The notes below the pieces were generated by a model. The model saw nothing but the letters and a program-made list of their open reading frames with translations, made no database searches and was not told the DNA's origin. A program made the translations under genes and the position numbers. A stretch of DNA of 64,000 nucleotides from Limnomonas spitsbergensis (Eukaryota; Chlorophyta; Chlorophyceae; Chlamydomonadales), in the NCBI GenBank assembly GCA_037349105.1, contig JAYJMM010000116.1, positions 3,348,001 through 3,412,000 on the forward strand, written 5' to 3'. Every line of letters begins with the position of its first letter. Positions within the stretch are counted from its first letter, which is position 1. Shown piece after piece: positions 1 through 64,000 of this stretch.

Positions 1-3000
1 ATCCAGATGGCTCCGGTGGTAGCTCCGGAGCCTGTCCGGGTGTTTGAGGGGCACACCGAGGATGTCCTAGATCTGTCATGGAGCCGAGGAGACATGCTGC
101 TCAGCGCGTCGGTCGACGGGTGCGAGGGGCAAGGGTATGGATCATGCGTGATGAGGTGTGGGGTGGATCTGGAGGGGTTGGGACTTGCCAAACACGTTAG
201 GGTGTGTCAGTTTTAGTTGTCGTTTTACTGGTGTACATGGTTTCAGATGCTGCTTTGTTCAAGGCCTGATCTGGTCGACTTTCCAGTCGAATTGGAGCCT
301 CGTGGTGTGTGGCGTCAAGTTGCATTAAATGTCATTCCAGGGAGGACAGACGCGGTCAGATGTTGAGAGATGTTGTAAACAAATGTCATAATGACGTTAA
401 ATTGAAAAACGACAGAGTTTTGTCTGCCAGGCAGGAGTGCCCTCCACCTGTGGCACATGCAGGAGTTGGGATGCCTTGGGAAGTGAGGTTGCCGGCTGGC
501 ACAGTGCTGCCTAAGTCGATTTGAATTCGAAATTCAAATGAAATGTGTCACTTCCTGACTTTCGGCAGGAGCGTCCGCCTCTGGCACATGAAGGAGTTTG
601 GTTGCCTGCGGGAGTTTACCCACCCCGATTTCGTCACCTCTGTCCGGTTCAACCCATCCAGCTCCACACTTTTTGCAACCGGTTGCGCAGACGGAAGGTA
701 AGGTGCCAGTGATCAATTTTTCGACAGATGTTTGATTCGAATGCATCGGTGTGTGGACGGAAATCGTGTCGGTGTTCAAAATTAAAAACCACAGATGATT
801 TGAATGGAAGTGGATGGAAGGAACGGTACTGAAGGTGAAAATTCGATACCATACTTTACATTGGAAGGGACGTTGATGACGTTACACCTCTAGCCTGGGC
901 CATGCTGAAATGAAGCTCGGCCACGTCGGCAAACAATAAGTCAGCTAGGAAAGTCAAGGGATCATCCTTCACATTGGATTGGGTGTGAAATGTGGACTGC
1001 CTAAATTCCTTTCCTCTCTCAGCCCTGTGCACACTCAAGTTGTCAGTGCGGTGCACAAACCGGATTGCGGGCACCATCCCCCCCCTGCATCAAACTATTC
1101 AAATGTGGTGTACTTCTCATGACTTTCAAAAAGGTGTGTGATCTGCTCAGGGTTCGCCTGTGGGACATCACGGCCGGCGGCGCGGTCCTGGCCAGTGCGG
1201 GGGTGCAGCAGGACATGGTGACCGCGGTGGAGTTCCTGTCCAATGGGCAGAGCCTGGTGGTGGGCACCATGAGGGGCGTGTGCAGGTGGGAAACTAGGGA
1301 CGGAGGGTCAAGGTGGGGTGCCTGGTGAGAACTGCCCAGCAGCCTGCTTGGGGTGGGTTGGAGGGGAAATATACACACCCGCTGTGTCCTTGAGCCTCTG
1401 AAGGCAGATTATAATACAGCCAGGTGACGAGGCTGTGTTCTACGTTGCGTGTTGCTGAAGTGTAGCTGAAGTGTAGCTGAAGCCCCCTCTACTGCCACTG
1501 CTGTGTCATTGAGCCCCTCAACGCAGGTCTAACAGCAGCTAGGTCATGTCAGGGTCGCAGAGTTGTTATGCTGGGTTGTAGCTGAAGTGTAGCTGTAGTG
1601 TAGCTGAAGTGTAGCTGAAGTGTAGCTGTCTGTCTGGACGCAGGTTCTACAACAGCAAGGTGGTCAAATCAGGGCTGACGGCTCCGAAAGCGAGGCTGCT
1701 GTCCCCCAGGCTCAAGCCCTCTGCGACGGTCACATCCCCGAGCAAGCCACCAGCGGCCGGCACCACTTCCAATGCACCGGCGCAAGAGGTTGGGGATAAG
1801 CTGGAGTACCTGGCCCAGGTGATAGGAGGGAAAAGTGGGAATCAGTGGCAGATGAGGGATGGGGAAGAGGCTGGAGTACCTGGCCCTAGCATCACAGGTT
1901 GAAGGGGGGTTGGTGGCAATTGATATGAACCCTTCATCGAAACCCTTCACCATAACCCTAAACCCACTGTGACCGGGCAGCTGGGCGTGATGCACCTGAA
2001 TCCTGAACCCTTAAATCACTGTGATTTGACAGCTGGACGTGAAAGACCTGAACCCTAAATCCTCCAACCACTGTGATTTGAAAGCAGGACGTGAAGAACC
2101 TGAACCCTAAAGCCGTAACCCTAAACCCTTCAAACCCACTCTGATTTGACAGCTAGACCTGAATCCTTAACCCTTTAAACCCACTCTGATTTGACAGCTG
2201 GACCTGAATCCTTAACCCTACAAACCCACTATGATTTGACAGCTGGACGTGAAAGACCTGAACCCTAAAGCCTTAACCCTAAACCCTTAAAACCCACTCT
2301 GATTTGACAGCTGGACGTGAAGGACCTGAACCCTAAAGCTTTAACCCTAAACCCTTCAAACCCACTCTGATTTGACAGCTGGACCTGAATCCTTAACCCT
2401 TCAAACCCACTCTGATTTACAGCTGGATGTGAAGGACCTGAACCCTACAGCCTTAACCCTAAACCCTTCAAACCCAATCTGATTTGACAGCTGGACCTGA
2501 ATCCTTAACTCTTCAAACCCAATCTGATTTGACAGCTGGACCTGAATCCTTAACCCTTCAAACCCAATCTGATTTGACAGCTGGACCTGAATCCTGAACC
2601 CTTCAAACCCACTCTGATTTACAGCTGGACGTGAAGGACCTGAGCCCTACAGCCTTAACCCTAAACCCTTCAAACCCACTCTGATTTGACAGCTGGGCGT
2701 GAAGGACCTGAACCCTAAAGCCTTAACCCTAAACCCTTCAAACCCACTCTGATTTGACAGCTGGACCTGAATCCTGAACCCTTCAAACCCACTCTGATTT
2801 ACAGCTGGATGTGAAGGACCTTCACTCCAACGCGGGTTCCTCTGGAAGCCGTATCGCGGGGCTGCTGGTGCTGCCCTCCAACGACTCCGTCATTGTGTCC
2901 TCGGCAGACTCAAGGCAGGTCCAACATCCGAACTTGATAAATGAAGGCGCCCCTGGGTGTGGATTCAGGGAGTGTGGATTCTAGGGAGCGGCAGGGGGGA

Positions 3001-6951: not shown

Positions 6952-9900
6952 TCATGCCATGCCCGAAAGCTGGGCGGAGAGGCTGCGGCTTGACTTCTCG
7001 TTTTCTCCAGATTCGAGGCCGTACGTCGAGGTGCCGCCGTGACGGGGCCCCACCGAGTCCGGCCTCAGCGGATCCGACCCTCGTTCCAGATCCGGATCCG
7101 GCTCCAAGCTGGCTGGATCCGACACTATAACCGACTTGGCCAGCGCCCCATCTTGCTCGGGACCTGCGCCCCCGCTACGCGAAGCGTCGCTCTCCTCACT
7201 GCCCGGCATCCGCAACGCGATTTCTGCCGACACTGAGCAGCCCGACGCATCCTCCAGGCCCGAGGATGCCGAACTTTTGAGACGCACGACACGGCTGCTG
7301 TGACCTTCAGCATCTAGGTCGGAATCCGCCTCCTCAGACTCCTCCTCGGTCGGCAACAGTCCGACAGGAAAAGCGCAGTGCGTGGGGTCGGACGGCGTCC
7401 GTGCCAGCGACAGGGGACTAAGTTCGCGCCTCTCATCGTTGATTATGGCGGATAATCGATCGTTCTGGCAAAACTCGGAAGACATGTGACGCGCCGCATC
7501 CCCCGACAAGTGCCGGCGGGAGGGGGGTGGAGCCATCCTGTGTGGTTCAGGACATGCCAGGGGTTCAGGTCGTGACAAGGGTACAAGGCATGCCAGGGGT
7601 ATAGGTCATGCCAGAAGTTCAGGGCATCAGGGCATGCCTGGGGTACAGGGCGTGTCAGGGGTTTAGGTCGTGCCAGGGCATGCCAGGGGCCTTCAACCAA
7701 TTGACTGTATTGAGGGGCTTTTTTTAGAGCCGATTCACACCTAGTTCAGTTCGCCGTTTCGGTTGGTTGATTCGGCGTCAGAAAGCCCTCTAGCAGGAAG
7801 CTCAGTTTGGCGAAACGAAACCAATGCAAAACCAATCAAACTGAAACTGGGGGTTGGACCCCAGGTTGCGAAACCGTGCGAAACCGAGGTACCCAAACCG
7901 GCCAAACTCAGCGAAACCAGCCAGGTGTCAATCTGCTCTTAGATGGCAAACCAGGTTCTGCTCATATGGTTCGGCTCATGTTAGACACACAAATATTGGT
8001 CAGCACACAAAGGAACCCAAATCAATGAGAGACCTCACCCACGTAACATGGGCGCAATTTCCCCACCACCCTCACGAGCAGTAGACTCGCCTGCTATCTT
8101 TGGAGCCCGGGCCGGGCTGCGACTTCAACAGCACGTACTTGCCCTTGCTGCTGCTGTTGCTGACTTCCCGCTCGCCCAAGGCACGGCTAGAGGCCACCCC
8201 ACAGCTGCTGCTGCGTGTCATGGTCGCTCGCCTTGGCACGGCCTCGCCCGCGCTGCTGCCTTCGTCCTCCGTCCCTGCCTCCGATGAGGGCTGCGGCAAG
8301 GGCAGAGTTAGTGTTGAGTTGCTGCAGCTAAATCCAGCTAAACCACGGCTAACGGCCGGAGAGGGGGAGGGGCTTTGTGCAGCAAGCCTGCCGCACGGGC
8401 CACCGACCATAGGCTGGTCAAGGTCAGGTCCTCATCAGCCCGGGTTGGCCACTGGTCGGCAGCCAGCCAGAGGTGGTTGGGGCGCTTTTCTGTATGAAAC
8501 AGGCAGAACAGCCTGACGGGAAAGGAGTGATGCAGATGCGCCATCTAACCAACTCGAGGGCTAAAGGGACGAAAGCGAACAGCAGAGAGCGCACAGAGGA
8601 AGAGGTGGTTTCAGGGCCTTGTGACCTGGGAGCCAGCGCCCACAACCACTACTCGCCAAACATCCACCAGGGGCCGTAACCAGCTGCCCTCTAGCAGAGC
8701 ACATGCATTCAAAAGCAAGCCTTGATCAATAGCATGGCTTCATCGCGGGCAAACAGCCTGATCATACCGAAATCCCAATCGACATTCATTTCTTAATACC
8801 TAGCTTCGCTGCATGCACTGGTACACAGTGGCCAGGGATCATCAGCAAGGCATCTTTTAAATGTTTCGCAGCGTCCCTACTACAAGCACAACAATGGTTC
8901 ACTACCACAGCCCTTGTTTTACCTGCAGCGTCAGATCCACCACAATGACCGTAATATTGTCCCGGCTGCCGCGCTCCATGGCGTTCTTCGCCAGCACGCT
9001 CGCGGCAACCCGGCAGCCGCCGTGCATCGACATGCCGCGCAGCTTGCAGCGCGTGATGCAGCGGCTAGCCAGGCTGGTGGCCTCCTGCGGGTGGATCAAG
9101 GCAGCAGGCAGGTGGGCTGGGGGGTCATTTGTGACGTGGATCAGGCTGGTGGCCTCTTTCGAGCAGTTCAGGCGGCTGGCAGGCAGGGAGCAGACGGACA
9201 GGGTAGTGAAATGGTTCACTGGATCAGGCTCGACAACACCTCAACACCTTCTAGGTTCTTTAGTTCCAGAATTTGCATCCAAGGTACCAAGATATAAGTC
9301 AAAGCATCTGGATCCAAGGCATTTGGATCCAAAGCATCTGGATCCAAACTTATTTTGAACCAGTAAAGTGTGGCAAAAGCTGATGTCAGAGTCAAACGCT
9401 TCCACACAAAGCCAAGGTCAGCACCATCAATGCCATTCCTACAGCCAGTATTAAAGTGAAGGCCCCTTAATCTACAGCCAGTATTGAGGTGAAGGCTTAA
9501 ACCCCTTAAACTATCGCCATTATTTCTGCACCCTCGACCCACTGCTACCTTTCCTGTTCCTAGGAACTAGATCATTCACAGACATCTGGCCAGTTAAAAG
9601 CAACCTAATGAAGTGCTAGGAACGATTCCGCAACTGTGCCTGCACACTGTATGGAGAGCCCATGTTCCACATTAAATGGAGAGCCCATGCTCCACACTAA
9701 ATGGAGAGCCCATGCTCACCGTGCCTGCACACTAAATGGAGAGCCCATGCTCCACACTAAATGAAGAGCCCATGCTCACCGTGCCTGCACACTAAATGGA
9801 GAGCCCATGCTCCACACTAAATGGAGAGCCCATGTTCCACATTAAATGGAGAGCCCATGCTCACCGTGCCTGCACACTAAATGGAGAGCCCATGTTCCAC

Positions 9901-12900
9901 ACTATATGGAGAGCCCATGCTCCACAATAAATGGAGAGCCCATGCCTACCGTGCCTGCACACTAAATGGAGAGCCCATGTTCCACACTATATGGAGAGCC
10001 CATGCTCACCGTGCCTGCACACTAAATGGAGAGCCCATGTTCCACAATAAATGGAGAGTCCATTCTCACCGTGCCTGCACACTAAATGGAGAGCCCATGT
10101 TCCACATTAAATGGAGAGCCCATGCTCCACACTAAATGGAGAGCCCATGCTCACCGTGCCTGCACACTAAATGGAGAGCCCATGCTCCACACTATATGGA
10201 GAGCCCATGCTCCACAATAAATGGAGAGCCTGCACATTGTATAGAGAGCCCATGCTCACCGTGCAGCTGAAAACATCCCACAAGCCGTCTGTTGCGATGA
10301 TGAGCACCTCGTCCTCTGAGCTCCGGAGCCGACAGGAGACCTGAGGGGGAGGGGGCGCGCGGGCTTCATTTCTGTGCAGGACCATCCCTTGGAAGGACCA
10401 CAGCCCTTGTGCCCCCCCCCCCCGTTGCAAAATTGCTCAATGTCCAGGGCGTCAAATGCAGGGTGCTTACAGTGCCGGAGTCCCTTATATAATGTGAGGC
10501 TCTATCCACAAATAGAAATATACCTCTTTCATTTGGGAAGCAAGTACACAGGTCACCTGTGACAGGGGGCATCCAGGTGCAGGGGCGGCCCCTATCGAGA
10601 GATCACCGAGTTTTTTCAGCCTGCCGCCTGACCCATTGGAGGTAAATTGCGAAAGAAACTACCAGTAGGCCTTCCCTTTTCCGGTGCCAAGTTGCCCACA
10701 AATTGTAATCTACCAAACCCATCCCTCCCTGTTAGCTTTTACTACTTCGCTCAGTTTCAGGTGCGCGGCAAGAGGCGCATGGACTATGCACCAGCAAACC
10801 AGCTTGGGCTCTATCGACAGATTAGGGGTAGCCACGATCACCCTCATGAATAAAATAACTCTGGTGGGCATGGACAGGAAGTATATTAGGTTCAGCCACT
10901 GTCTTAATGATGCTGATTTTACTGTCCTGCTCATGCTAGGTTCCAAGCAGATCTCCCTCATCAGTGTCATTTCTGAGCTTAACCCAATGCACAGCCGTTC
11001 ATGAAATATTGCAGCTTTCGGCCCCGCAATGAACAAGGTTGGACAGAACGGAAGGACCTGGCTAGCAAACGAGATGTTCCCATGACCAGATATATGGATC
11101 CATGTCCTGCTCAGAATAATACGAAACATTCCCTGTCTTGCCCAGATGGCAGAGGAAATGCTGCAAATGCAATCATGGGGCCCATTTGCCACCTCTGACT
11201 AACAGAATTTGTGTGAGCTGGAAACAGAGCTTGAAAGCAGGCCAGACTTGCATGCAAGACACATGGACTGACAACCACAACACTCAAGTAGGAATATTTC
11301 TATCCAACCAGTGCAGCATGGAGGCCTATCAAGCACCAACTGAAAATGAACTTCCCAACTGGCAACTCATCCCCGAGAGACAAAGCCCTACCCTCAAGCA
11401 AGGAAGATTGAAGGGGTCACTTGGTCCCCAGCCCCACAGCTAGCTACAGTCAAGAAACAGCCAAAGCAAAAACAAAGAGGAGCAAAACAGCATTCTGGGC
11501 TGGTATTGGGTATTTGAATCAACTTTTGCACGTTGTGTGTGGGTGCCCCTAGATTGAAAACCAGATGAGCTGGACCATCCGAGCTTGATTCCACGATTGT
11601 GTTTGAAGATTTTAAACACATGTATGTGCGATAAATACCTTGCCAAATCACATATAGTCAGCCCTGTACCCTGGTCAACCCAGTACCCAGATAAACCTGT
11701 ACCCTGGTCAACCCAGTAGTCAGGTTAACCCTGTACCCTGGTCAACCCTACACCATGGTCAACCCCCGTACCCTGGTCAACCCAGTACCCTAGTCAACTT
11801 TGTACCCTGGTCAACCCAGGACCCTCGTCAACCCTGTACCCAGGTAAACCCTACACCCTGGTCATCTATCAACAATGGCAAGCACCCTGCATCCCTGAGT
11901 ATACCTCGGGCTCTGCGATGACGAACGGCCGCATGTAGTGGTCGCCAATGGCTCGAGACATGGCGAGGAAACCTTGGACACGGTTTGACACGACCTTGCC
12001 TCCCAGATCTTTGATGCGGGACTACGTGGAGGCAAGGAGGAGTGGGGTGTAGAATTCAAGGTCGGCTCCATTACCGTTAAGGTTGAGAACAAGAGGACAT
12101 CACGTGGACAGCAAGGGAATCGGAGCCAAGGGGGCAGGGTTTGGGCCAACAGCGGAGGGTCCAGGGCGAAAGACTAGCTCAGCCAGTCATGTCAGTAACT
12201 GAACAGACACAGCGGGTGCTGACAATAATTTGAAAACACCGCAGACTAGTGATTTGGAGATGTCCGAATGAGGCAGATGGCTCAGGTGCCGGCTTCAGCC
12301 TCCAGAGGCAGAGTGTGGGCGCATATCCCAGTCCACCAGACCTGTCCACAGGACTTCAGATCCTCAACCACACAGCTCAGCCATGCAGGACTGCATTAAA
12401 GCATCTAGAACCCTGCTGAACCTGTTCTCGGCCCAGCTAAGCCCAGCCCCCAGCCCAACCCAGCCCAGCCCCCAGCCCTCAATCCAGCCCAGCCCCCAGC
12501 CCTCAACACAGCCCAGCCATCCCAACCCAGCCCAGCCCAGCCCCCAGCCCAGCCATCCCAATTCCACCCACCGCTTCGTCTTCCCTGTTTGGCTTGTGGT
12601 CGTCAGTCAAGGGGATGGTGTCCCCACTGCTCTGCATCACCGCCCGCGAGTCACCTGACGCGATATTCAAGAGAGACAAAGGGGCAACTCAGCACTAAAA
12701 GGGGGCATCATACGGCAGTAAGACATGGATATGAAGATCCTGTTGAGTAGCCTATTTAACTTCCACTGTTTCATGGGGCTGGCGGGCCATTCTAAAAAGG
12801 GCCAATGCAACTATGCCAATGGTATTTTTCGCTGAAGAGGTCATGAGCCTGCTTCCCCCCAAAACACGGTCACCCCAGTGCGCCGCCCACGTCAGCCTCT

Positions 12901-15900
12901 TGCCCACAACATTGCAACAGCACGTACATCATCTCACCCCCGCCCCCACTCGCCATCCGCCCCCGCCCCTGCTCGCCATCCGCCCCTGCTCACCCCGGTG
13001 CGCCATCCATGTCAGCCTCTTGCCCACAACATTGCAAAAGCACCTACCAACATCATCTCACCCCCGCCCCCGCTCGCCATCCACCCACCATATGTGTGTT
13101 TATTACATCATCTCACCCCCGCCCCCACTCGCCATCCGCCCCCGCAACAGCACCTACATCCTCTGACCCCTGTGTGTTCATTACATTCTCTCACCCCCGC
13201 CCCAGCTCGCCATCCGTCCCCGCTCACCGCAGTGCGCCACCCATATGTGTGTTTTGCCCACAACCACGACAACTGCTGTCGCGCCTACAAACTCCCCCTC
13301 CTCAGTGCCCTTGAGCTCCTCGTCCGTCATGCAGAAGGAGGCGCGAAGAGCATCTGTGACCAAGGCTGTCGGGCAAGTCACGTCGCCTGCGCAGAATAAA
13401 ATAGGAATTAGTGGCGGGGCTGGAGGTTTTGCTTTGCCAACATCTCATCCCACAAGTTGAGAGCTGAGTGAGGTACTCGTGAAGTGTGTACTCCCCGTTG
13501 TCCTTTATAATGATGACAGTGTCAGTCCCTCGGTTCGACAGCTGCTCCTCACGTCTCTTCAGTCAAGTCCCGCTTATGTCAGGGCCACCAAAAGAGCTCC
13601 TCAGGTTGAATCTCCAGAACACATAGCGGATTGAAGCGCTGAAAAACATGTGCCTATGCGACCCAACAGAGTAGCCAAGCGCATTCCCGGAAGCCATACC
13701 TGAGCGGGGAGACGTTGACTCAACAGCCACATTCCAAGCTGCATACAGAAGCAGGGTGTGAAGGTATGCATCTATGCGACTATGCATCAATGCCACCCAC
13801 AAGTGTGCATTGCATCCCGCCATGTCCTCTGAAGGAGCTCACCTGAGCGGGGAGACGTTGACTCAACAGCCACATTCCAAGCTGCATACAGAAGCAGGGT
13901 GTGAAGGTATGCATCTAGACAACTATGCATACGTGCAGCCCACAATTGTGCATTGAACATTTGAATCCCACTGCATCCCCTAGAAGGTGCTTACCTGAAC
14001 CGTGAGACGTGGACTCAATCGCCACCTCAAAGCTGTTGAGCACTGGCAGTGATGACGACAACGAGCGGTCAAACCTGGCGAACATACAACATTACTTTCA
14101 CCATGGTGGTAGTGGGTGCGGGGGAAGCTCTCAGATAGTGCTTCGGCCGAATAGGTGGCAATCTTAATCCACACCTCAGGGCGTATCGTTTATTTATTTA
14201 TTCATAACGGCAAAGCTGCTGAGGCCAGAAACTTGTAGGGCACATGGACTGCTGAGTGCATCAAGCTAAAAGGCATGCGCATGGAGGGCTTCATTGGCGG
14301 TGCTGAAGCACATGACCCACACACAACCTTCCAGGCTAGTTTGGACGGTGGGGCTGTCAACGACAAGATACAAATGACAACATAGCCTTACTGAGCCCTC
14401 TCCCAGGGAGTTCCCGCCTGTCAGGAGGAGACAATGCCTCTTGGAGGTCCGAAAGGAGGTGGGCATAGGTGAGCTCAACTTTTGGGGCCAGAAAGTAGGG
14501 AGATGGGCATGAATGAGCTCAAATTCAAGGGCCAGAAAGTAAGGAGGTGGGCATAAGTGAGCTCAAGTTCAAGGGCCAGAGAGTACTTTGGCCTTGACAA
14601 GAGGCTATATAATCACAGGTGTATGAATGTTCCCAGCAGTTTACAATTACAACACCAAGGACTCGTTTTTCTAACTTGAGCTTGAGGCGTAAGTGACCAA
14701 GTGGGCAGTCAATCTCAAGATATTCCCCCAAGCAGGTCCTGCACACAAACACCCAATGCATCCTCCCTGCCAATGCCTTTCGTGGCTCCAGGGTTCCAAG
14801 CTCAAGAGACAGAACACTCACAGAGCCTGCTCGTCTCTTTCCGCCGCACGCTCCACCTTGCGGCAGATGCTGGCCTCGAGCCTGGTAGAGAAGTGGCTGT
14901 GGAGCCTGCAATGACATAGGGTTTAGGGTATGCGTGTCAGGGATAGGGAGTGCTGTGGAGCCTGCAAGGACACAGGGTTTAGGGTATGCATGTCGTGGAT
15001 AGGGGGTGCTGTGGAGCCTGCAATGACATAGGGTTTAGGGTATGCATGTCAGGGATAGGGAGTGCTGTGGAGCCTGCAATGACATAGGGTTTAGAGTATG
15101 CATGTCAGGGATAGGGAGTGCTGTGGAGCCTGCAAGGACATAGGGTTAAGGGTATGCATGTCAGGGATAGGGAGTGCTGTGGAGCCTGCAAGGACATAGG
15201 GTTTAGGGTATGCATGTCGGGGATAGGGGGTGCTGTGGAGCCTGCAATGACATAGGGTTTAGGGTATGCATGTCAGGGATAGGGGGTGCTGTGGAGCCTG
15301 CATGTAGAGCCTGTAAGAACGCCCGTTTCAGGGAGAGACCATGCTGACTTCCAACGACACGCATCGTATGAGGGAAAGGTCATGTGTATGGAGCCTATAC
15401 TGACAAACATTTTAGGGAGGGAGGTCATACGCGTGAGACCTACAAGAACACACTCTTTCAAGAAAGGAAGCGGTGCTGTTTGGAATGTGGCCCCGAGACC
15501 TGTCCAGGTTTGGGCAACATCGGGCCTTTCACAAGCACAGAGAAACCTACTCGAGGCACATTCTTGGGAATCATGGCCTATTGGCCTAGGAAAGCAAAAC
15601 AAATAAAGATGGGATCCCGCGCAGGGCTGGCCACAGTGGTATTCAAAAGTAATAGCAGTACATTCCTGCGCAATGGCAAACTGCTTGTGGGCAAGGATTT
15701 TGGACTTCTGCGCAGTCAAGAGAAACCTGAAATTGCGACCGCTGCAAGGTAAAAATGAAGGGTCGATGATTTACATATTGTCACCATTTCCTTTGACCAC
15801 TGAATTTTTGACAACAAATCCTGCCTTGTCGTCCACCTAGCTTTTAGTTGAGGGGGCACACTGTCAAGGGCGGCAGCCAACTATTTGCCGACTGGTGGCC

Positions 15901-20719: not shown

Positions 20720-20724
20720 TACTT

Positions 20725-20913
20725 CAGTAGATTTAAATTGCCTTCCCTCATAATTAGCATTGTTAAGGGGTGGGGGATTCATTAAAATACGAATAATTTT
20801 CAGTTTCAGTCAGACGTCTAGAGTTTGTGTCCATATGTTTGCCGGAGGGGAGTATTAAAGTAATCAAAGAAACAATTAATTCATGGCTTAGGGAAGGCAA
20901 TTTAAATCTACGG
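20725..20913. mobile_element. MITE, copy 1, with 5-bp target duplication
   Basis: A 189-bp element with terminal inverted repeats of about 22 bp (left GTAGATTTAAATTGCCTTCC, right its complement ending TTTAAATCTACGG). It is flanked by TACTT at 20720-20724 and 20914-20918. It has no coding capacity and an AT-rich middle. A second family member is at 62322-62508. The transposase superfamily cannot be set from this alone. Confidence 0.8.
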
Positions 20914-21008
20914 TACTTTGCGCCTCGATGCATGGCCCTGTGGCCTCTCCTTTTGTTCCTTTCCCCCCCCTCTTCCTTTTAGTTTCTTCTTTTCTCCCTT
21001 CTGAACAG

Positions 21009-21062
21009 TTGGGCGCCCACGCGGCCGAGCTTTGAGCGGGCCCAGAGGTGTAACGTTATTGA
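21009..21062 (+). repeat. Dispersed module D1 (copy 2)
   Basis: GCGCCCACGCGGCCGAGC, then GGGCCCAGAGGTGTAACGTT. The next copy lies 142 bp downstream in the same orientation. Confidence 0.7.
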
Positions 21063-21150
21063 CTGGCTGTGGTGCCATACGTTGCCTTTCAGCTCAGCAT
21101 ACATGTATTACCCCTGGTGTTTGTTTTGCTCTGTCCTCCCAACCCTTCAG

Positions 21151-21212
21151 TTAGGCGCCCACGCGGCCGAGCCTTTTGAGTCGGGCCCTGAGGTGTAACG
21201 TCATTGACATGT
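21151..21212 (+). repeat. Dispersed module D1 (copy 3)
   Basis: GCGCCCACGCGGCCGAGCCT, then GAGGTGTAACGTCATTGACA. Best-preserved copy in the window. Confidence 0.7.
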
Positions 21213-27350: not shown

Positions 27351-27399
27351 GCGACAACTTATTGTTGATCCTCTCTGGCCTCATCCACTAAACCATAAA

Positions 27400-35500: not shown

Positions 35501-38500
35501 TTGAGCCTCAGCAACCGTCCAACTGCCGTTCAGCTACAGTTCAGTGATGTATCGGTTGGAGGCCTCATACAGGGCTTGCCATGCTGTTTGGGCTGATAGC
35601 CAAAAGCCGGTTCTGACTTTGTCCCCATCGGGCTTTTCGCGGCATGGGGCAGCCCTCCCGCAGATGGCCTTTTAGCTGGAAAAACAAACACGAGCTGTGG
35701 AACGGTTTATCTTGTACGGAGGCTGCAATCACTGCACATGGCCAACCGCTGTCCACTTGTCTGCATTGCATACCAAATAGCGTTTCATATCAGGCATTGT
35801 TTTATCAGGTGTTAAATGCCAGGTGTAATGCCAGGTGTAATGCTAGGTGTGAAATGCCAGGTGTAATGCCAGGTGTAATGCCAGGTGTAATGCCAGGTGT
35901 AATGCCAGGTGTAATGCCAGGTGTAATGCTAGGTGTGAAATGCCAGGTGTAATGCCAGGTGTAATGCCAGGTGTAATGCCAGGTGTAATGCCAGGTGTAA
36001 TGCCAGGTGTAATGCTAGGTGTAGAATGGCAGGTGTAATGCCAGGTGTAATGCCAGGTGTAATGCCAGGTGTAATGCCAGGTGTAATGCCAGGTGTAATG
36101 CCAGGTGTAATGCCAGGTGTAATGCCAGGTGTAATGCCAGGTGTAATGCCAGGTGTTAAATGCCAGGTGTAATGCCAGGTGTGAAATGCCAGGTGTAATG
36201 CTAGGTGTGAAATGCCAGGTGTGAAATGCCAGGTGTAATGCCAGGTGTTAAATGCCAGGTGTAATGCCAGGTGTAATGCCAGGTGTAATGCCAGGTGTTA
36301 AATGCCAGGTGTAATGCCAGGTGTGAAATGCCAGGTGTAATGCTAGGTGTGAAATGCCAGGTGTGAAATGCCAGGTGTAATGCCAGGTGTTAAATGCCAG
36401 GTGTAATGCCAGGTGTAATGCCAGGTGTAATGCCAGGTGTAATGCCAGGTGAAATGCCAGGTGTGAAATGCCAGGTGTGAAATGCCAGGTGTAATGCCAG
36501 GTGTAATGCCAGGTGTGAAATGCCAGGTGTTGAATGCCAGGTTTTCATCCTGGCGTTGCAGGTGTTCAATGTTTGGTGTTTCATATTAGGCGTTTTTTGC
36601 TTGTCATTAAAACGGACTTGTATGGGTCTTGCGTTATATGCTGGTGGCTGGAGCATCATGACCTGCAACTCAAAGTAGCTTGATCTGTCAGCAAGAAGCC
36701 CCATCCCAGCCCTGTGACATTTGTGGGACATTTGTCGGACTCCTGCAACAAAAATAGTGATAATGTGTGAGGATTTCAGCTATCACCATGCGCAGCCCCT
36801 ATCCCCCTCTGCCCTGCCCTACCCTGTGCGCACCTGTAAAACCTGATGGCTGTCGTGTCTGCCCCGAACGGTGACAGGCGTCCGGTGAGCTGAAGCAGCT
36901 GTTGGACGAGAAGGGCGGGCCCCCACCTCATCAGACCGTGACAGCGCCCGCACCAGCACCAGCGCCAATCGCCGCCCCGGAGAGCAAAGAGCAGTTGACC
37001 GCGCGGATCAAATCGCTGCTCGGCACGCAGCCAGTCATGCTGTTTATGAAGGGAAACCCGGAGGCGCCAAGATGTGGGTTCAGCCGCAAGGTGAGCGGGG
37101 CTGAAGGACGAGCTTTCGGTTTAGGGTTCAGGCGCAATGTGAGCAGGGCTGAGGGAGGTAGTTTCGGTTAAGGGTCTAGGGTTCAGCGGCAGGGTGAGCA
37201 GGGCTGGGGGACGTGGTTTCGGTTTAGGGTTTAGCCGCAAGGTGAGCAGGGTTGAGGGACGTGGTTTCGGTTTAGGGTCTAGGGTTCAGCCGCAAGGTGA
37301 GCAGGGCTGAGGGACGTGGTTTTTGTTTAGGGTTAAGGGTTTAGCCGCAAGGTGAGCAGGGCTGAAGAACGTGGTTTCGGTTTAAGGTTCAGGCTTTAGC
37401 CGCATGGTGAGCAGGGTTGAGGGACGTGGTTTCGGTTTAGGGTCAAGGGTTCAGCCGCAAGGTGAGCAGGGCTGAAGGACGTGGTTTCGGTTTAGGGTTT
37501 AGCCGCAAGGCGAGCAGGGCTGAGGGACGTGGTTTCGGTTTAGGGTTCAGGGTTTAGCCGCAAGGTGAGCAGGGCTGAGGGACATGGTTTCGGTTTAGGG
37601 TTTGGGGCTCAGGCGCAGGCTGAGCAGGGTTGAGGGACGTGGTTTCAGTTTAGGGTCTAGGGTCCAGCCGCAAGGTGAGCGGGGCTGAAGGACGTGGTTT
37701 CGGTTTAGGGTCTACGGTTCAGCCGCAAGGTGAGCGGGGTTGAAGGACGTGGTTTCAGTTTAGGGTCTAGGGTCCAGCCGCAAGGTGAGCGGGGCTGAAG
37801 GACGTGGTTTCGGTTTAGGGTCTACGGTTCAGCCGCAAGGTGAGCGGGGCTGAAGGACGTGGTTTCGGTTTAGGGTCTACGGTTCAGCCGCAAGGTGAGC
37901 GGGGTTGAAGGACGTGGTTTCGGTTTAGGGTCTACGGTTCAGCCGCAAGGTGAGCAGGGCTGAAGGACGTGGTTTCGGTTTAGGGTCTAGCCGCAAGGTG
38001 AGCAGGGCTGAGGGACGTGGTTTCGGTTTAGGGTCTACGGTTCAGCCGCAGGGTGAACAGGGCTGAGGGACGTGGTTTAGGTTTAGGGTTTAGGGTTTAG
38101 CCGCAAGTCAAGCAGGGCTGAGAGACGTGGTTTCGGGTAAGGGGGTGATGGTTTGTGGGTTCAGCCGCAAGGTGAGCGGAGCTGACGGGTGCGGTTTCGT
38201 TTTTTGCTGCGAGGCATGCATATCTGGGCGAGCTTTGGGGGGCGCCGTCTCTCAGTGTTTATGGAAGACTTGCATCTTGTAATGATGGGCGTGGCTTCGG
38301 TTTGCTTGGAAAGGCGTGTGTGTATGGGACTGAATGAGAAAGCTTTTGTATCCCCGGAGTGACTCCCTCAAAGCATGTCCCTTATCCTTGCTGCACCTGC
38401 CCCCCCTCCCCTGGACGGCTATATGTAATCTCTGGAAAAGGTCACCCGCATATGGTTGTGTAGGGGAGGGGAACCTTAATGTCGCAGCTACCAGCCAACT

Positions 38501-41111
38501 CCTTGTCGCACCTTGTTAATGGTGTAGGGTTTAGGGTGCACCCGCAGCAGGGTCCAGCGCCCACCCTCTCATCGTGGTGTAGGGCATGCTAGATGCTCCA
38601 GGGGCCAGCCAGGTCCAAGTCACGACTTGTCAATGGCTTAGGGTTCTACAGCACATCATTTCAATGGTGCAGGGTTCTCCAGCACATCATATCAATGGCT
38701 TCGGGTTCTCAAAAGCACATCAGGGTCTGGCTGTCTGGCGCTCACCCACACATTTCATGTGGGCGAAGCTTTATGTTACAGTGGCCAGCCTGGTGCTGGC
38801 CACACCTTGTTGATTTAGGGTTCTCCAGCACATCAGGGTCTGGCCGCCCAGCACTCACCCACCCATGGTCATGTGGGTGAAGGTTTATGTCAATGTGGCC
38901 AGTCTGGTCCTCGTCACACCTTGTCAATGGTGTAGGCTTCTCTGGCAGATCAGGATCTGGCGCTCACCCATGCGGCCATGAATGGTCATGTGGGCAAACG
39001 TTGATGTCCCGGTGGCCAGCCTGGTGTTGGCCTCACATTATGAGGGTGTAGGGTTTACACAGTTAGGGTCTGGTGCTGCAGTGACGCACTGTGCTCCAGC
39101 GCCGGCGTCAACGTCTCATTTGAGGGGCCTTCAGCGGCGTTTCAGCCACACTGCATCATGGATGCTTGGCCTTTGGCCGGAATGGCTGCGCGCAGCAAGC
39201 CCAATGCCGTTGAGTCCACCGCCTGGAGCCGGGTTTTGTCCCAATGCATGTTTTGTTCCCAATGCATGATTTGGTACGCATCGGCCTGGTGGTGGGCGTG
39301 CAGCGGTCCCTCACATGTGTTCTAGCTTGCAGAAAAAATTCGCGCGACATAAGAAAGAAGTGTAGCCCTTGCACTTACCCTGAGGACATCCAAAGGTGAA
39401 GCGGATACCCAAAGGTGGTCTGGCTCACAGGGAAAAAATCACAAACGTAAGGAAGAAGGAAAGAAAAATCACAACCCTGAACCTTACCCTAAAATGTCAG
39501 CTAAAATGTTACCTTACCCTACACCCAGGAAAATCGGCCCTGCTTCCCCCTGCAGGTTGTGGACGCCCTGCGGTCCATTGAGGTCCCCTTCGGCACCTTT
39601 GACATCCTCTCGGATGAGGTGATACGCGCCGGTCTCAAGGAGTACAGCAACTGGCCCACCTACCCGCAGCTGTTTGTGAAGGGGGAGATGATGGGGGGCT
39701 GCGACATCATTTTGGAAATGCAGGTGAGATTTGAGGGCACGCGGGGCGGATTTGGGTATGGGGGCGGGGTCGGAGAGAGGGAGGTATCAGATTTGGGGAT
39801 GGGGTATTTTCTTGGTGAAGCGTGTTTTCCAAGGGTGAAAAGATGGGAGGCTCGGACATTGTTCTGGAGATGCTGGTGAGGCCAGGGGGGGGAGACGCCT
39901 TGTAAGCCTCAATGGCATGCGGGGCAAATTTCGGTATGGGGGCAGGGGTGGGCAGGAGGGAGATATTTGATTGGGGATGGGCCTTGTTCTTGGTGAAGCC
40001 TGCTTTGTCGGTATTTTGTCAAAGGGTACATGATAGGAGGCTCCGACATTGTTCTGGAGATGCAGGTGAGGCGGGGAGGGGAGACACGAGGTGAGACGCA
40101 AGGGCATGCACGGAGTGCAACATCTTGAGTTGATGCTTGCTTGGGGGAGGTGATTGGATTCTGCGACATCATCTTGGGAGGAGCATGTGAGACGTATGGG
40201 AATGAAGGTGAGACATGTGACGTATGGTTGCCCTGGGCAAATATTTCAATCTTTGAAGGGGGGTGGGGAAAGCATTTGAGACGCAAGGGAGCGTGCATGG
40301 GAGGTCACCTCGGACAAATGTTTGTATGCAGGCGAGGGCGGGAGGGGGGGAAGCCACTAGGAGGGGTATACATTATCCTGGAGATTCAGATGATGAGATG
40401 CATGGGCATGCACAGAATGTGAAATCCAAGGCAAATGTTTGTAAAAGGGAGGGAGGAGGGAGGGGTGAGCCATCCGATAGGGGGCTGTTCGTATCCTTGG
40501 CAAATTGCGTCTTGTTTTGTGCAGGAGGTGGGTCTGGGAATACAGGATACAGATTTCCAAAGGGCGTTGAAAACCGCGTGCGCCAGCAACGTCTTTTTTA
40601 GCGTGTGCCTGACCGCATCTTGGGGGGGGCCGCCGGGCGGTTACCATGCGGCCAATCGGGACCAACCCTTGACCGGCCTTCGGCCAGTGGCCTGCGCAGC
40701 ACGGACCCGAGAGATAGCCCACATCATGACACCTTGGACCCCCAGTGTTGATGTTTGTGTGCACTGTTTTGCCCTACCATGTGGATAGGTATTAGGCAGC
40801 CACCACTTAGCTAATGGGGGGCTCAGAGGTGTAACGTCCATAGCTTAGCTGATGGGGGGCTCAGTGGTGGCTGGTAGCCCAAGCAGGAAGCCAATGGCCG
40901 GTAGCCCAGGCAGCAGGCACCTTGCTGACCTGCCCATGGGGTCCATGTAGGCCGTTGATGTACCTGGGCCCTGTACCCAGGCCGATGTACCTGGATTTAA
41001 GACAAAGCACTTGAACATGACTGCCGGTGACCTCCCGTCTCGCAGGGGACCGGAGAGCTCAAGGCAGCGATGGAGGAAATGATGAAGAGCGGCACAGGGA
41101 GTGCGGCATGA
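29588..41111 (+). CDS. GLRX3/GRXS17-like: Multidomain monothiol glutaredoxin (Trx-like + two CGFS Grx domains)
   Basis: Eight exons: 29588-29641, 29871-30053, 30436-30624, 31524-31589, 35251-35391, 36878-37090, 39556-39723, 41046-41111. All introns are phase 0 and the protein is 359 aa. The N-terminal Trx-like domain (about 19-85) has [16 protein letters not shown] with a single Cys, as in PICOT proteins, and SVPTFIFLQ. Grx1 has [19 protein letters not shown] and [20 protein letters not shown]. Grx2 has [19 protein letters not shown] and [20 protein letters not shown]. Both CGFS sites and the WPTYPQ and GGCDI glutathione-binding motifs are intact. The family binds bridging [2Fe-2S] clusters with glutathione in cytosol and nucleus and acts in iron homeostasis and cluster delivery. 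Two Grx domains match animal and fungal GLRX3, against three in land-plant GRXS17. The start ATG opens [13 protein letters not shown]. Intron 2 appears to be GC-AG (GCGAGT at 30054). Confidence 0.93.
30640..30712 (+). repeat. Inverted copies of a glutaredoxin exon segment
   Basis: Three copies of ACCACATCTGGT(G/A) lie just after exon 3. The exon contains CCACCAGATGTGGTTG (about 30557-30573), their reverse complement, so exon and intron RNA could pair. Confidence 0.6.
31590..32060 (+). repeat. Degenerate copies of the glutaredoxin exon 4 donor junction
   Basis: The real junction is CAACAGCCTGCAG|GTGAAG (31589/31590). Similar strings recur near 31740 (CAGCCTACATGTGAAG), 31918 (CAACAGCCCACAGGTGAA), 31980 (CAACAGCCTACATGTGAAG) and 32043 (CAGCGTACAGGCAAAG), spaced by about 60-180 bp. 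Confidence 0.75.
32215..35240 (+). repeat. 3-kb C-rich minisatellite, ~27-bp unit, about 110 copies
   Basis: The unit is close to CCTCAAGCCTCACCCCCCCT plus GACCCCT, with C-tract length variants. It fills the 3' part of glutaredoxin intron 4 up to 10-20 bp before the acceptor CCCTCAACAG|GCC. The plus strand is almost free of G. Minus-strand frames reading GGVRLEEGS are by-products of the 27-bp period. Blocks of several units recur (for example about 32330-32640 and 32870-33140), showing higher-order duplication. Confidence 0.95.
35433..35470 (+). repeat. Partial copy of the glutaredoxin exon 5 end
   Basis: GCTGGTGGGGGGCTGCGACG TTATCTATGAAG closely follows the exon 5 end (GAGCTGGTGGGGGGCTGCGA CATCATCAACGAG), about 80 bp downstream. 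One more exon-edge duplicate inside the next intron. Confidence 0.75.
35815..36545 (+). repeat. 12-bp array AATGCCAGGTGT
   Basis: About 60 units of AATGCCAGGTGT with variants (TAGG, TTAA, GAAA spacers) in intron 5. The core ATGCCAGGTG differs by one inserted C from the exon 5 donor junction GAGATGCAG|GTGAGG, so every unit carries an AGGTG donor-like site. Confidence 0.9.
37081..38185 (+). repeat. Minisatellite carrying the CGFS-exon donor junction
   Basis: About 18 units of roughly 55-60 bp. Each contains TTCAGCCGCAAGGTGAGC (or TTTAGCC...), identical to the end of exon 6 and its donor (GGGTTCAGCCGCAAG|GTGAGC at 37079-37096), then GGGGCTGAAGGACGTGGTTT and CGGTTTAGGGT. The codons for F-S-R-K of the active-site exon are copied with the splice site. 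Confidence 0.95.
38510..39075 (+). repeat. ~120-bp degenerate repeat in glutaredoxin intron 6
   Basis: Four or so copies of GTAGGGTTCTCCAGCACATC, AGGGTCTGGC, CACCCA...CATGTGGGCGAAG and GTGGCCAGCCTGGT. No exon match seen. Confidence 0.75.
39724..40400 (+). repeat. Degenerate copies of the glutaredoxin exon 7 donor region
   Basis: The exon end GGGGGGCTGCGACATCATTT TGGAAATGCAG|GTGAG recurs as GGGAGGCTCGGACATTGTTC TGGAGATGCTGGTGAGG (about 39845-39882), ATAGGAGGCTCCGACATTGT TCTGGAGATGCAGGTGAGG (about 40030-40072), and weaker copies near 40150 and 40370. Two keep a full GTGAGG donor. Confidence 0.9.
40625..40705 (+). repeat. Dispersed GC-rich module D2 (glutaredoxin intron 7)
   Basis: GGCCGCCGGGCGGTTACCAT, CCAATCGGGACCAACCCTTG and ACCGGCC. 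It shares blocks with 30815-30935, 51145-51290, 52085-52215, 53595-53740, 58200-58320, 62520-62655 and 62955-63105. Several members end with one or two GTAGCTGAA-type units. Confidence 0.6.
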
Positions 41112-43266: not shown

Positions 43267-46200
43267 CTATGGCGGGTCAGTGAGAACAGGGGGAGATGCT
43301 GGACGGCAGTCGGGTGGACTGTTTTCAAGGTAACGGCGAAGTCGATGAATGGAATAGGCAGATTGGACAGTGTGAACTGCTAGTTGTTTGAGCAGTGGGG
43401 GGACGTTGAAGGGTGTGATACCAAGGACTGGAAAGAGGTGCATGATATCTTTATAGAAAATGCCAGAGCAACCAATGATGACGAGGTGAACATAGGGGTA
43501 GAGGATGTCTTTAGCAGGGGGGGGTAACAGATATGTAAGAGGGTGGGGGGCAGGAATGTGGAGAGGGTCTATAACAGGTGTAGTGAGGTTCCATCCTGCG
43601 GAGCGAAGCAATTGTACTAACTGTGCATGTTGTGTGGATTTGTGGGACAGGCAGAATTGTAGATTGGAGGTAAACCCGAGCTCAATAACATGGATGGTAC
43701 AACGGTGTTGGAGGTCAAGAAGGAAGGCAGGGTCGGCAAGCCGGGCGGGAGGATAACTGTGGAGATCGGCAATGGTAAGGCCTTCAATTAAGAGGAGATC
43801 AGGACGAAGGCGGCAGAGTGTGGCAGGGGGGACAGCGGGAAGCATCCATTGCGGGATACGGGTGTCATAGACTCCTGGTGGGAGGGATGTAGCGGGTGTG
43901 GCATCCATAATTGTGAACATTCCACTCTTTGTGCCTCTGTGGAGGGAACGTTGGATGAGGCAGAGGGCCTTGTTGTGTCGGGAGATATAAGAGGCCTGCA
44001 TACGGGGATGCCTGCATCTTCCAAACATGTGTCCCTGTGTGTCAGAAGTAGCGTCAGGTGGGCCAGTAGGAGGTGGTGTACATATGGGGCAAAGGCCATC
44101 GGTAAACGAGCGCACTGTTGTTTTGTAGGGAATACGGAAGAGAAGTGCCCGTTTAGCTGTCCATAAGAGGTTGGCTCGCATACGGAGGATGCAGCGCTTC
44201 AGAGAAAAGTGGCAAGCAGAAGACTGCCACATGTGATTGTTATACAAGGGTAAAGAGTGGGCATTTTCTTCGATTATGCGGGTATAAGTAGCACAAGATA
44301 TGGTGGTGTCACCGTCCGTAACGTGAGGGCAAGAAGAGTGAAGGTGTGCCTTGATAGAGGAGGTGAGGTCAGAAGTGAACCAAGGGGTGTCGTTTGTATC
44401 CGTTTGAGTATCGTCTTGGGGTAGGCAAGGCCAAGCTGGGAGGGAAGCCATGTACTGGTTGTTGATATGGGAAAGGTTAAATGTACAAGTGCTGGGTGCG
44501 TCCAAGGCTCGTGTTGCCCCAATGTCAGCAAGTTCATTGCCGATAATACCAATATGTGATTTCACCTTCTGGATGAGCGTTGGTAGGCCTATGTTGGCCC
44601 GTGAAAGGAGTAGGCGGCGGATGGCCAGGAGAAGCGGTGCATGCTTGTCCTCAAGGAGATCATGTGGGTAAAAGACAGCTTTCTGTATGAGGTACATGCT
44701 GCAAAGACTGTCAGTGAAGATAGTAAGGGAAGGGGCAATGGTCAAGGCGGGGCCAGAAGGTGTATGGGCATGATCGAGGGCTGCATGAATGCCTCCAAGT
44801 TCAGCCCTGGTGATAGTGTTCGTTTCACATTTTCCAGTAGGGTTGACTGTATGGGTGGAGCCATCGACAGTGAAGTAAAAGGCAGCCCCTATCAAGTTAT
44901 TGCCGGCGTCATCCTGTATACAAGCTCCGTCTGTGTAGTATGCCGGAAGCAACGGCCAAGCAAGTGGATAGGTAGGGGGGTAGAGAGATCGGAGTTCATC
45001 GAAAAGGATAAGGGGGAAAGTGAGTGGGGCAAGTGGGAGAGGGGTAGGCGGGGTAGTGTGCGTGTGTAGGTGGGAGGCTACAGAGAATCCAGCGGGGTGT
45101 TGCCATTTCGCATGCGAACCGGGAAGTTGGGATTGGCGCCGGGTGGGTGGGTGTGGACGGTGGGCAGGTGTGGTACCAGGTGGGTGTCCATGTCCAGATA
45201 GTGTGTGCACATTGGAATCGACTGGAGCAGTGGGAGGTGGGTCAGGGTAGAAGCGAGCGAGGCCCTCTGTGTTACCAATGACAAGAAGTTGTAGTGGCCA
45301 TTTGGGAGTGCCGTATGTTGGTTGGGTTGCTGTGTAGATGTGTGCCAAGTGGTCCGGGGCTGAAAAGCGAAAGTTGGGGTCGGTATGAAGAGTCAGAACA
45401 TGAACCACATTGGCATGGGAGGTCCAATTCATGAAAGATGAGTTCTTCCAAACTGGGGTAAGGATAATAGTGCATGTGGGTACCGTAGTCATGCTGGCGG
45501 ATGAGACGGCCCAACGGATTGCCTTTGTGATTGTTTTTATCTTGAAGTCTGGATGAACGAACGAGCTGCCGGTCCAAGGTGTGGAGTACGCATTATGGAG
45601 AGCCCCAAAAAGACAATCGTGATGGTGGGTGGTATAGTATGTGCGTGCATGGTAGGAGACGTCGAGAGGAGAAGCAAAACGGTGGAGATGGGTGGACATG
45701 GTATCTGAGAGCACTTGCATCATGGGTTCCGGGAGACACCAAGTCGTGTTAGGCGCGGTTCCTGTTTTGTGCTTGGTATGAATGGGGTATCGGGCAAGAA
45801 GGGAAGCAAGATCTTGCTCGAAGGAACCCTCAGAGTGGGCGAGGTGTAGGGCAGGAAGGGTAAGTTTCGTATGATCATAGCATGCACGAAGCCAGTGCAG
45901 GCGGCGGGCAGGGATGCAACCAACAAGAGTGCCATTTGGGCGGTATAGGTAGGCATAGTGACATTGCCATGGAAGGGGTTGCGGATCAGAGGCAGGGGCG
46001 GAAGGTAAGGGGGGAGGGTGTAACGGGCCGGAAGAGGGTGAGTGGAGTCCAATCTGGATAGTGAAGGAATGTGGTGGTATGATGTCGAAGTCAGGATGGA
46101 CAGGATTTATGTTAAAGGAGACGTGTTGGTCGATGCATGAGTGATCTTGGTTCGCAGAGGATGGGACCCATTGGGTGCGGGGATGGGGATTTGTGGAGCG

Positions 46201-46950
46201 TAAACGCCAGAGCCCTTGACGTTGGAGGTTTGTGAGGCCGAGGTCAAGGGGACGGGTAGGGGAAGGAGGAAGCAAGGGACAGGCGGGGTCCGTATGTGGG
46301 TGTGCTTGGTCTGGTAATGTCCGCTTACGTGAGAGGGATGTACGGTTTAAGGGAGGGTGGTGTGGGGTAGAGGAACGATAGGGTGGACGAGAGTACGAGA
46401 CGAACGGTTGATCCAACAATCCTGAGCGAGTCGTGGGGGGGCATAGACGGGGGGGGGGCGGGGGAGGGGGGCATGAGAGGTCTAGAATGTAGTCATGATG
46501 ATGAGGGAGTGGGGGACCGGGGGGTGCAGCCAGGTCCAGGACAAACAATGTGGGAGGAGGGATGTGGGGCAAGGTGGAAGGGACAGGGGGAGGAGAGGGA
46601 GGGGGGCATGAAAGGTCGAGAATGTTGTTGGGATGGTGGGGGAGTAGGGGGCATGGTGTCGTGCCCAAGTGTAGGACAAAGGGAGCATGAGGAAGGGGTG
46701 GGCTAGAGGGAAGGCCTGGGTTGGGAAAGAGCTCTGGAGCGCGGGTATGAGTACTACGGGGGATAGTGGGACGGGCGCGCTTTGAAGTTGCTTGAGGGCG
46801 TGGGGAGAAGCATTGGGGGAGGAGACCAAGGGCCTGGTCGGCACTGGGAGCAGAGGCGATGTGGGGGAGGGTGGTCGAGACAACCTGAGGGAGTTGGGAG
46901 AAGTCATGGGCGATCTGACTGTCTGACCTGGCGCACGCCAATGTTGCCAT
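43267..46950 (-). CDS. Retroelement-like protein with RNase H and C-terminal Cys/His motif, no RT
   Basis: A single open frame of 1227 codons. Residues 1-330 are Pro/Ser/His-rich and low complexity. RNase H spans about 665-820: YYTDGACIQ (about 669), TRAELGGIHAALDH (about 715), IFTDSLCSMYLIQ (about 744), KVKSHIGIIGNELADIGA (about 797-814), giving the D-E-D-(H)-D set. C-terminal to it is CPIC...H..GRCRHP, like the Cys/His motif after RNase H in many non-LTR retrotransposons. No YxDD or other RT motif appears in the frame. Residues about 330-560 (TIILTPVWKNSSF, PKWPLQLLVIGN) look conserved in style but are unassigned. It may be a truncated LINE 3' end or an autonomous RNase H protein family of algae. 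The ATG at 46950 is the first in frame. Confidence 0.75.
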   Translation of the reverse strand: MATLACARSDSQIAHDFSQLPQVVSTTLPHIASAPSADQALGLLPQCFSPRPQATSKRARPTIPRSTHTRAPELFPNPGLPSSPPLPHAPFVLHLGTTPCPLLPHHPNNILDLSCPPPSPPPVPSTLPHIPPPTLFVLDLAAPPGPPLPHHHDYILDLSCPPPPPPPRLCPPTTRSGLLDQPFVSYSRPPYRSSTPHHPPLNRTSLSRKRTLPDQAHPHTDPACPLLPPSPTRPLDLGLTNLQRQGLWRLRSTNPHPRTQWVPSSANQDHSCIDQHVSFNINPVHPDFDIIPPHSFTIQIGLHSPSSGPLHPPPLPSAPASDPQPLPWQCHYAYLYRPNGTLVGCIPARRLHWLRACYDHTKLTLPALHLAHSEGSFEQDLASLLARYPIHTKHKTGTAPNTTWCLPEPMMQVLSDTMSTHLHRFASPLDVSYHARTYYTTHHHDCLFGALHNAYSTPWTGSSFVHPDFKIKTITKAIRWAVSSASMTTVPTCTIILTPVWKNSSFMNWTSHANVVHVLTLHTDPNFRFSAPDHLAHIYTATQPTYGTPKWPLQLLVIGNTEGLARFYPDPPPTAPVDSNVHTLSGHGHPPGTTPAHRPHPPTRRQSQLPGSHAKWQHPAGFSVASHLHTHTTPPTPLPLAPLTFPLILFDELRSLYPPTYPLAWPLLPAYYTDGACIQDDAGNNLIGAAFYFTVDGSTHTVNPTGKCETNTITRAELGGIHAALDHAHTPSGPALTIAPSLTIFTDSLCSMYLIQKAVFYPHDLLEDKHAPLLLAIRRLLLSRANIGLPTLIQKVKSHIGIIGNELADIGATRALDAPSTCTFNLSHINNQYMASLPAWPCLPQDDTQTDTNDTPWFTSDLTSSIKAHLHSSCPHVTDGDTTISCATYTRIIEENAHSLPLYNNHMWQSSACHFSLKRCILRMRANLLWTAKRALLFRIPYKTTVRSFTDGLCPICTPPPTGPPDATSDTQGHMFGRCRHPRMQASYISRHNKALCLIQRSLHRGTKSGMFTIMDATPATSLPPGVYDTRIPQWMLPAVPPATLCRLRPDLLLIEGLTIADLHSYPPARLADPAFLLDLQHRCTIHVIELGFTSNLQFCLSHKSTQHAQLVQLLRSAGWNLTTPVIDPLHIPAPHPLTYLLPPPAKDILYPYVHLVIIGCSGIFYKDIMHLFPVLGITPFNVPPLLKQLAVHTVQSAYSIHRLRRYLENSPPDCRPASPPVLTDPP

Positions 46951-47370
46951 GTATTGCTGCGAGCCTGCAACGTCCTACCTCGCTCGCCCACACACGCTCA
47001 CGTGCTCCCGCGACTGTGCTAATCCATCTGCAAATAAATCAAACACTAACGCCTCGTGATTAAAATGATTGATACTGGCTCAACCTGGCAAGGCGCGATG
47101 CTAGTCTGAGTCACCCACCCCAGCTGGCGCATACCGGTATTGAGGGCTCCTTCGACAGCGTTAGATCCCGTAGCGCTTGTTCAACGGCGAAGCTGCAGAT
47201 TATTCATTACAACCTTAGTAGATTCACACAGCCAAATTGTGCATAACGTGGCTCGCTGTTGACACACACGACCAAGCGGGCCCGGAGTCACCTGATAACC
47301 CAGCAGGTTAGGGAAGCGGAGGCTATTCTATTGCGTCTCGGAGCAAGCACACGCCACCTTCGCTCTCGAC
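46951..47370. other. Short divergent intergenic gap
   Basis: 420 bp between the start of the minus-strand RNase H ORF and the MGAGIS start. It could serve as a shared promoter region. No TATA box or known element could be assigned. Confidence 0.4.

Positions 47371-64000
<16,630 letters not shown>

Follow-up and report, generated by a model that had tools for sequence, protein, structure and literature searches.

Exon-edge and splice-site copies in introns of the green alga Limnomonas spitsbergensis show no preference for the exon edge over intron interiors

Do the introns of Limnomonas spitsbergensis preferentially copy their own exon borders, and do they arise or grow in this way? The question is raised by a 64-kb stretch of its genome (the window; positions 3348001-3412000 of contig C116), for which the original prediction listed 19 stretches of intronic repeats holding exon ends or starts fused to the adjoining splice site. 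It read these as duplication favouring the exon edge, as in AGGT-type intron birth, and as a possible genome-wide mechanism of intron growth. The published assembly of the species (260,248,090 bp in 124 contigs; GC content, 54.15%) is described as built from PacBio reads, with IsoSeq transcripts available (PMC11228838). The genome used here comprised 260,226,709 bases in 124 contigs, with contigs megabases long. We report how the listed stretches fared and how often exon edges are copied elsewhere in the genome.

Exons of a PICOT/GRXS17-like gene (forward strand) and a PP2C gene (reverse strand) were set by tblastn and spliced alignment to algal homologues; PICOT was modelled against Chlamydomonas eustigma P0001, and C. 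eustigma was its closest protein relative (66%). Probes of 30 bases (junction or exon side) were used, and the best match was compared with 200 random regions. Ten of the 19 stretches were examined, of which eight held up, one (31590-32060) was weak and one (35815-36545) failed. The examined set leaves out 14906-15303, 47463-47730, 49931-50300, 50470-50690, 51781-51965, 54742-54990, 56850-57115, 57886-57960 and 62050-62905. Window pieces from 47 to 63 kb gave nothing over the cut-off against Pfam (best hit CSN5_C, E 0.16) and no homologue fixing exons; several of the eight stretches listed there are tandem arrays according to TRF.

PICOT intron 5 (37091-39555, +) holds a donor-junction array at 37124-38157 with a unit of about 55 bp (TRF). 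Across 37081-38185, the junction at donor 37091 recurs in 20 copies matching at 23-29/30, whereas the reverse complement of the probe reaches only 16/30. Where the intron following PICOT exon 6 begins (39724-40400, +), the final 30 bases of the exon and the donor recur in diverged form (exon side of donor 39724, 24/30, with 0/200 random regions as good; junction, 20/30, with 1% as good). Intron 3 (31590-35250, +) begins with weak donor-junction copies at 31590-32060 (junction, 20/30, equalled by 1% of random regions; exon side, 18/30, equalled by 5%), none reaching 21/30 for donor 31590. They are followed by a C-rich minisatellite at 32244-35237 (27-bp unit, about 110 copies) that occupies most of the intron. 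In intron 4 (35392-36877, +), the end of the exon before it recurs once, in diverged form, at 35448 (22/30). The 12-bp array at 35815-36545 was rejected as an exon-edge copy, as 95% of random regions did equally well as its 14/30. Intron 1 (30054-30435, +), which appears to be of GC-AG type, and intron 2 (30625-31523, +) have no edge copies at 21/30 or better.

On the reverse strand, the PP2C intron at 9085-10259 contains a donor-junction array at 9648-10259, with five copies of the junction at donor 10259 at 21/30 (about nine exon bases in common, judged by eye), and one acceptor-type copy near 9171. The latter falls in the listed stretch 9121-9190 (acceptor 9085; junction, 23/30; exon side, 18/30) and lacks the AG. 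The intron at 12655-13227 has donor-junction copies near 13008 (25/30) and 12888 (21/30), the better of which upholds 12866-13227 for donor 13227. At the intron start spanning 13600-13994, the exon end before the GT at 13994 recurs at 13872 with a donor-like GT, within the listed 13697-13912 (24/30, with 0/200 random regions as good; donor 13994 was taken from the open frame only, not from a template). The introns at 10341-11904 and 12022-12571 gave no edge copies at 21/30 or better. Among the nine PICOT and PP2C introns tested, five were without a copy at that level, and one of those five (donor 31590) has the weak copies.

Two acceptor-type cases on the forward strand lie near the start of the window. 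In a WD40 gene (Pfam), exon-start bases are copied within 425-568, upstream of the true exon start at 569; for the listed 425-480, probed with the site set one base into the intron, the exon side matched at 23/30 (0/200 random regions as good), but the junction at only 16/30 (16% as good). The second is an array at 1930-2804 that ends at a presumed exon start at 2805. A 20-mer spanning the acceptor (2804/2805) is found again, exact, at 2416; the exon is placed without a template, and a 27/30 match there compares copy with copy (master taken at 2423). TRF gave 86 tandem-repeat rows in the window and 382 in five dynein loci elsewhere in the genome (median period, 25 bp), that is, minisatellites in the sense of head-to-tail units of about 10-100 bp. 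One array (14860-15400), searched against the whole genome as an introner check, matched itself and one 133-bp segment at 75%. The window also holds a putative coding stretch at 43270-46974 (-; 1,235 codons stop-free, the visible start proline-rich), a 20-bp array of 57 copies at 47901-49040 in which all three minus frames are open, and a long (CA)n tract at 61085-61628.

Statistics beyond the window come from one gene family in one assembly. A PF12774 profile search gave 89 matches, read as 16 dynein heavy-chain genes, of which 14 on 11 contigs were used and two (on C36 and C120) left out. Introns were called by spliced alignment to seven green-algal dyneins, and candidates with an alignment score below 2 per residue or a length mismatch above 6 residues were dropped. 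This yielded 148 introns (116 in five genes and 32 in nine others; contigs C86 and C119 yielded only 8 and 7), and the window genes were excluded from the counts. The best protein relative for one dynein heavy chain was again C. eustigma (74%), which for both PICOT and dynein is consistent with the published placement of Limnomonas. The first set of 116 introns had a median intron length of 504 bp and a median exon length of 166 bp. A 24-mer was called copied if at least 20/24 bases matched elsewhere within its own intron.

In the first set, 23/116 introns held a copy of the last 24 exon bases, 16/116 one of the first 24 and 49/116 some boundary copy; the 32 further introns, a poorer set, gave 3, 2 and 7, respectively. 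Over all 148 introns in 14 genes, the counts were 26, 18 and 56, so that about one donor in six has an exon end with a near-copy in the same intron. With other introns as targets, 0-0.6% of probes from the first set were copied. Edges were compared with exon interiors as the original prediction had proposed, and 0/754 deep-exon probes from the exons upstream of the 116 introns were copied; in the five genes, the copy rate reaches zero past about 60 bp inside exons. In these five genes, TRF repeats made up 9-64% of intron sequence, depending on the gene (35% in the one sampled best), versus 0-5% of exon bases, and under a wider repeat definition 45% of intron bases were repeated (148 introns). 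Copies of exon edges are thus real and occur far outside the window, and the pattern persists in what is apparently a long-read assembly.

The other half of the claim, that the edge is favoured, did not survive a comparison with intron interiors. Interior 24-mers of the same 148 introns were copied at 18.0%, giving edge-to-interior ratios of 0.97 (95% confidence interval [CI], 0.62-1.44) at donors and 0.67 (95% CI, 0.38-1.01) at acceptors. Junction-centred probes gave 0.86 (0.54-1.29) and 0.79 (0.49-1.16), and with probe lengths of 16, 20 and 30 edges likewise did not exceed interiors. Edge preference was therefore rejected: for copying, the exon edge is one more piece of intron-side DNA. The exon interior is the wrong null because duplications inside exons should be purged, and that comparison shows only exon protection. 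If anything, the edge should be over-detected, because its exonic master copy is constrained. At acceptors, copying is if anything rarer, as would be expected if decoy acceptors lying upstream carried a small cost.

Donor copies numbered 57 in 33 introns and held 12-62 exon bases each (12 being the floor of the method). Most (46/57) lay within 250 bp of the donor, with first-copy offsets of 47-309 bp, and GT was intact in 50/57, which bears out the predicted rows of decoy splice sites. In the exon-seeded sets, GT was kept in 23/27 donor copies and AG in 14/19 acceptor copies (hand tally), and splice dinucleotides in decoys were about as well preserved as the exon bases accompanying them. Similarity extended into the intron beyond the splice dinucleotide (p < 0.02) in 22/27 donor and 15/19 acceptor copies; most copies thus carry intron flank, and are therefore taken to be DNA-level segments that crossed the junction. 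The remaining 5/27 and 4/19 had no intron-side similarity. Eight copies had neither intron-side nor neighbouring-exon similarity, some of them beginning near the exon border; plain tandem duplication does not account for these. Among exon-seeded donor copies, the two GT positions were kept in 23/23 and 20/23 versus about half from +6 on, a better retention that we provisionally ascribe to constraint on the real donor. On our reading of the donor-copy table, the exon part of a copy tends to be under half the copy offset in length, a bias not predicted by uniform placement.

The closest known parallel comes from birds. For chicken dot chromosomes, Hron et al. 2026 (PMC12954441) characterise "sequence stuttering" by three features, including extensive intraspecies length variation, and "exon stuttering," in which a lateral part of an exon is copied through the intron together with the splice donor or acceptor. 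They report it for 190/5,572 dot-chromosome introns (3.4%), strongly concentrated on the GC-rich dot chromosomes, with more than 90% of sources at most 1 base from the border, a median of 4 copies per expansion and a median exon part of 36 bp; among other vertebrates, they state, only gerbils showed stuttering. We reused the published screen settings (blastn-short; length, at least 20; at least 42.1 bits), omitting the manual curation and repeat filter of Hron et al., and found 24/148 introns positive (16%), with a median exon part of 35 bp. All 34 matches (34/34) lay in the adjoining intron in sense orientation; shuffled introns gave 0, and within the dynein genes no exon-copy match fell in a non-adjacent intron. 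Incidence is thus 16% in the alga (one gene family, several contigs) versus 3.4% of dot-chromosome introns in the chicken, and exon parts are nearly equal in length. Sources at most 1 base from the border make up 16/26 versus more than 90%, and the median is 1 copy per expansion versus 4. Two of the three described features are found here, namely, introns full of imperfect local tandem repeats (TRF, 9-64% per gene) and fragments of coding-exon edges repeated with their splice site in the adjacent intron (24/148). What happens in the alga resembles stuttering in how it works, and the two probably represent one kind of phenomenon in widely separated lineages. Intron GC was 56% (148 introns), and affected genes lie on several contigs. 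No G-quadruplex association was seen, as G4 motifs were about equally common in affected and other introns (38/56 versus 58/92).

Three other papers describe partial parallels. In human segmental duplications, variable tandem repeats sit at exon-intron boundaries (PMC2812944); there, too, minisatellites on the border alter splice-site numbers, but unlike in the alga they concern recent primate paralogues, are often kept in exons and are tied to new introns. The potato RdRp case described in PMC4974935 likewise involves tandem duplication across an exon-intron boundary, whereas the alga duplicates inside pre-existing introns whose two ends are dissimilar. In C. reinhardtii and V. carteri, tandem-repeat density is reportedly highest in introns, increasing towards intron ends (PMC3887541); that study counted repeats, and its passages on the subject make no mention of exon-edge copies. 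Our literature search found no report of stuttering outside vertebrates.

Taking the copies with their position, orientation, density and lack of edge preference, we consider it highly probable that boundary copies are the border-crossing members of a general local tandem duplication in non-coding DNA. Short local duplications would arise throughout the non-coding DNA of this alga and be repeated into minisatellites, presumably by replication slippage, repair synthesis or unequal exchange. A duplication across a donor or acceptor would place an exon edge and splice site in the intron. It would be tolerated if the site joined to the complete exon, presumably the outer one, remained and was still used, leaving the mRNA unchanged. 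Duplications within exons would probably be removed by selection, and introns would grow out of their own sequence. Plain tandem duplication fits less well for copies that show no intron flank although the youth of their exon part implies that some should remain (introns 1 and 29; acceptor copies 23, 26 and 57), and spacer-containing or repair-type duplications may contribute. Exon-edge copies far above chance and above exon interiors would also be expected if the AGGT-like junction itself started duplications, as a route of intron origin or growth. Sources in the blastn-short screen lay at most 5 bases from the border in 21/26 exon-intron pairs, and the 9/46 copies without intron-side similarity include some starting near the exon border. 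We nevertheless regard such targeting as improbable: edges show no excess over intron interiors, though a constrained master makes them easier to recognise; purging of duplications deeper in exons would by itself leave sources at the border; donor junctions do not resemble acceptor junctions; and the positions of introns with boundary copies are no less often shared than those of other introns.

Copying by way of RNA, in which reverse copies of pre-mRNA or mRNA fragments enter the intron close to a splice site (for example, in break repair), would account for the sense orientation and for the few copies that start near the exon border (acceptor copies 23, 26 and 57). It is hardly plausible given that 37/46 copies carry intron flank and 34/34 screen matches adjoin their source; copies of mRNA type were rejected, as continuation into the next exon occurred in 0/27 donor copies and into the previous exon in 1/19 acceptor copies (p = 0.007, one of 46 tests). 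Selection for alternative splice sites, or relics of cassette exons, could be read from the consensus sites kept in many decoys and from offsets divisible by three in 24/57 donor copies (19 expected). Since dinucleotides are kept only about as well as co-copied exon bases, and only part of the exon is copied, we find this very unlikely. Least credible of all is a collapsed or stuttered long-read consensus. The published assembly is indeed based on PacBio long reads and arrays are hard to assemble, but donor copies are 67-96% identical to their master, unlike read-error copies, and the assembly has megabase contigs and was, according to its description, polished with PacBio and Illumina reads (PMC11228838).

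Local tandem duplication, as preferred here, bears on intron growth more than on intron birth. For AGGT-type birth no clear sign emerged. Donor and acceptor junctions resembled each other at or above the 99.9th percentile in 2/116 introns (23 and 21 of 40 matches, a weak likeness); otherwise the two ends of one intron were no more similar than ends taken from different introns. The exon end recurred in the last 80 bp of the intron at 18/24 or better in 0/116, and the exon start in the first 80 bp at that level in 0/116. Intron positions were common to a paralogue for 25/56 introns with boundary copies and 28/91 others (53 shared overall versus 8.0 expected after shifting; 147/148 introns mapped); at least those at shared positions are therefore old introns that have since grown. 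Introns with boundary copies were longer (median, 538 versus 445 bp; p = 0.0045; 116 introns). Intron growth, as predicted, agrees with these lengths; an edge-targeted mechanism does not fit the data.

Composition changes along the introns as well. They begin G-rich (5') and finish C-rich (3'), GC skew by decile running from +0.42 to -0.50 (148 introns); towards the 3' end, repeated parts have a stronger skew than unique ones. In the zone 90-150 bp from the acceptor, mean skew was -0.41 in introns above 650 bp (n = 36) versus -0.14 in those of 310-450 bp (n = 46; p = 0.001), and at the same distance from the donor it was 0.26 versus 0.07 (p = 0.04). Skew zones that reach further in longer introns would be expected if internal duplication stretched the introns, but not from foreign insertion; selection for splicing signals could also contribute.

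We tentatively suggest, holding it somewhat less probable than its opposite, that stuttering, rather than being peculiar to birds, is a route by which introns grow in general. Introns of this alga would lengthen mainly by local self-duplication, which would stretch the G-rich zone at their 5' end and the C-rich zone at their 3' end, and as a by-product about 40% of them would hold decoys that the spliceosome passes almost without cost by choosing the full-exon copy. In a unicellular alga whose incidence is almost five times that of chicken dot chromosomes (one gene family), mechanism and cost would become testable, because full-length transcripts have been made for the species. With one donor in about six near-copied and 20 junction copies in PICOT intron 5, the introns also offer a natural experiment on splice-site choice. 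The intron-interior control bears in turn on the more than 90% of border sources in the bird study, which random local duplication with purging would also yield.

Two telomere-like motifs were enriched in the 116 introns of the five dynein genes. CCCTRAA occurred 78 times versus 8.5 expected, and 16 of the 78 start 21-40 nt ahead of the intron's 3' end, where the branch site probably lies. TTYAGGG occurred 40 times versus 6.2 expected, with 27/40 falling within the first 30% of intron length.
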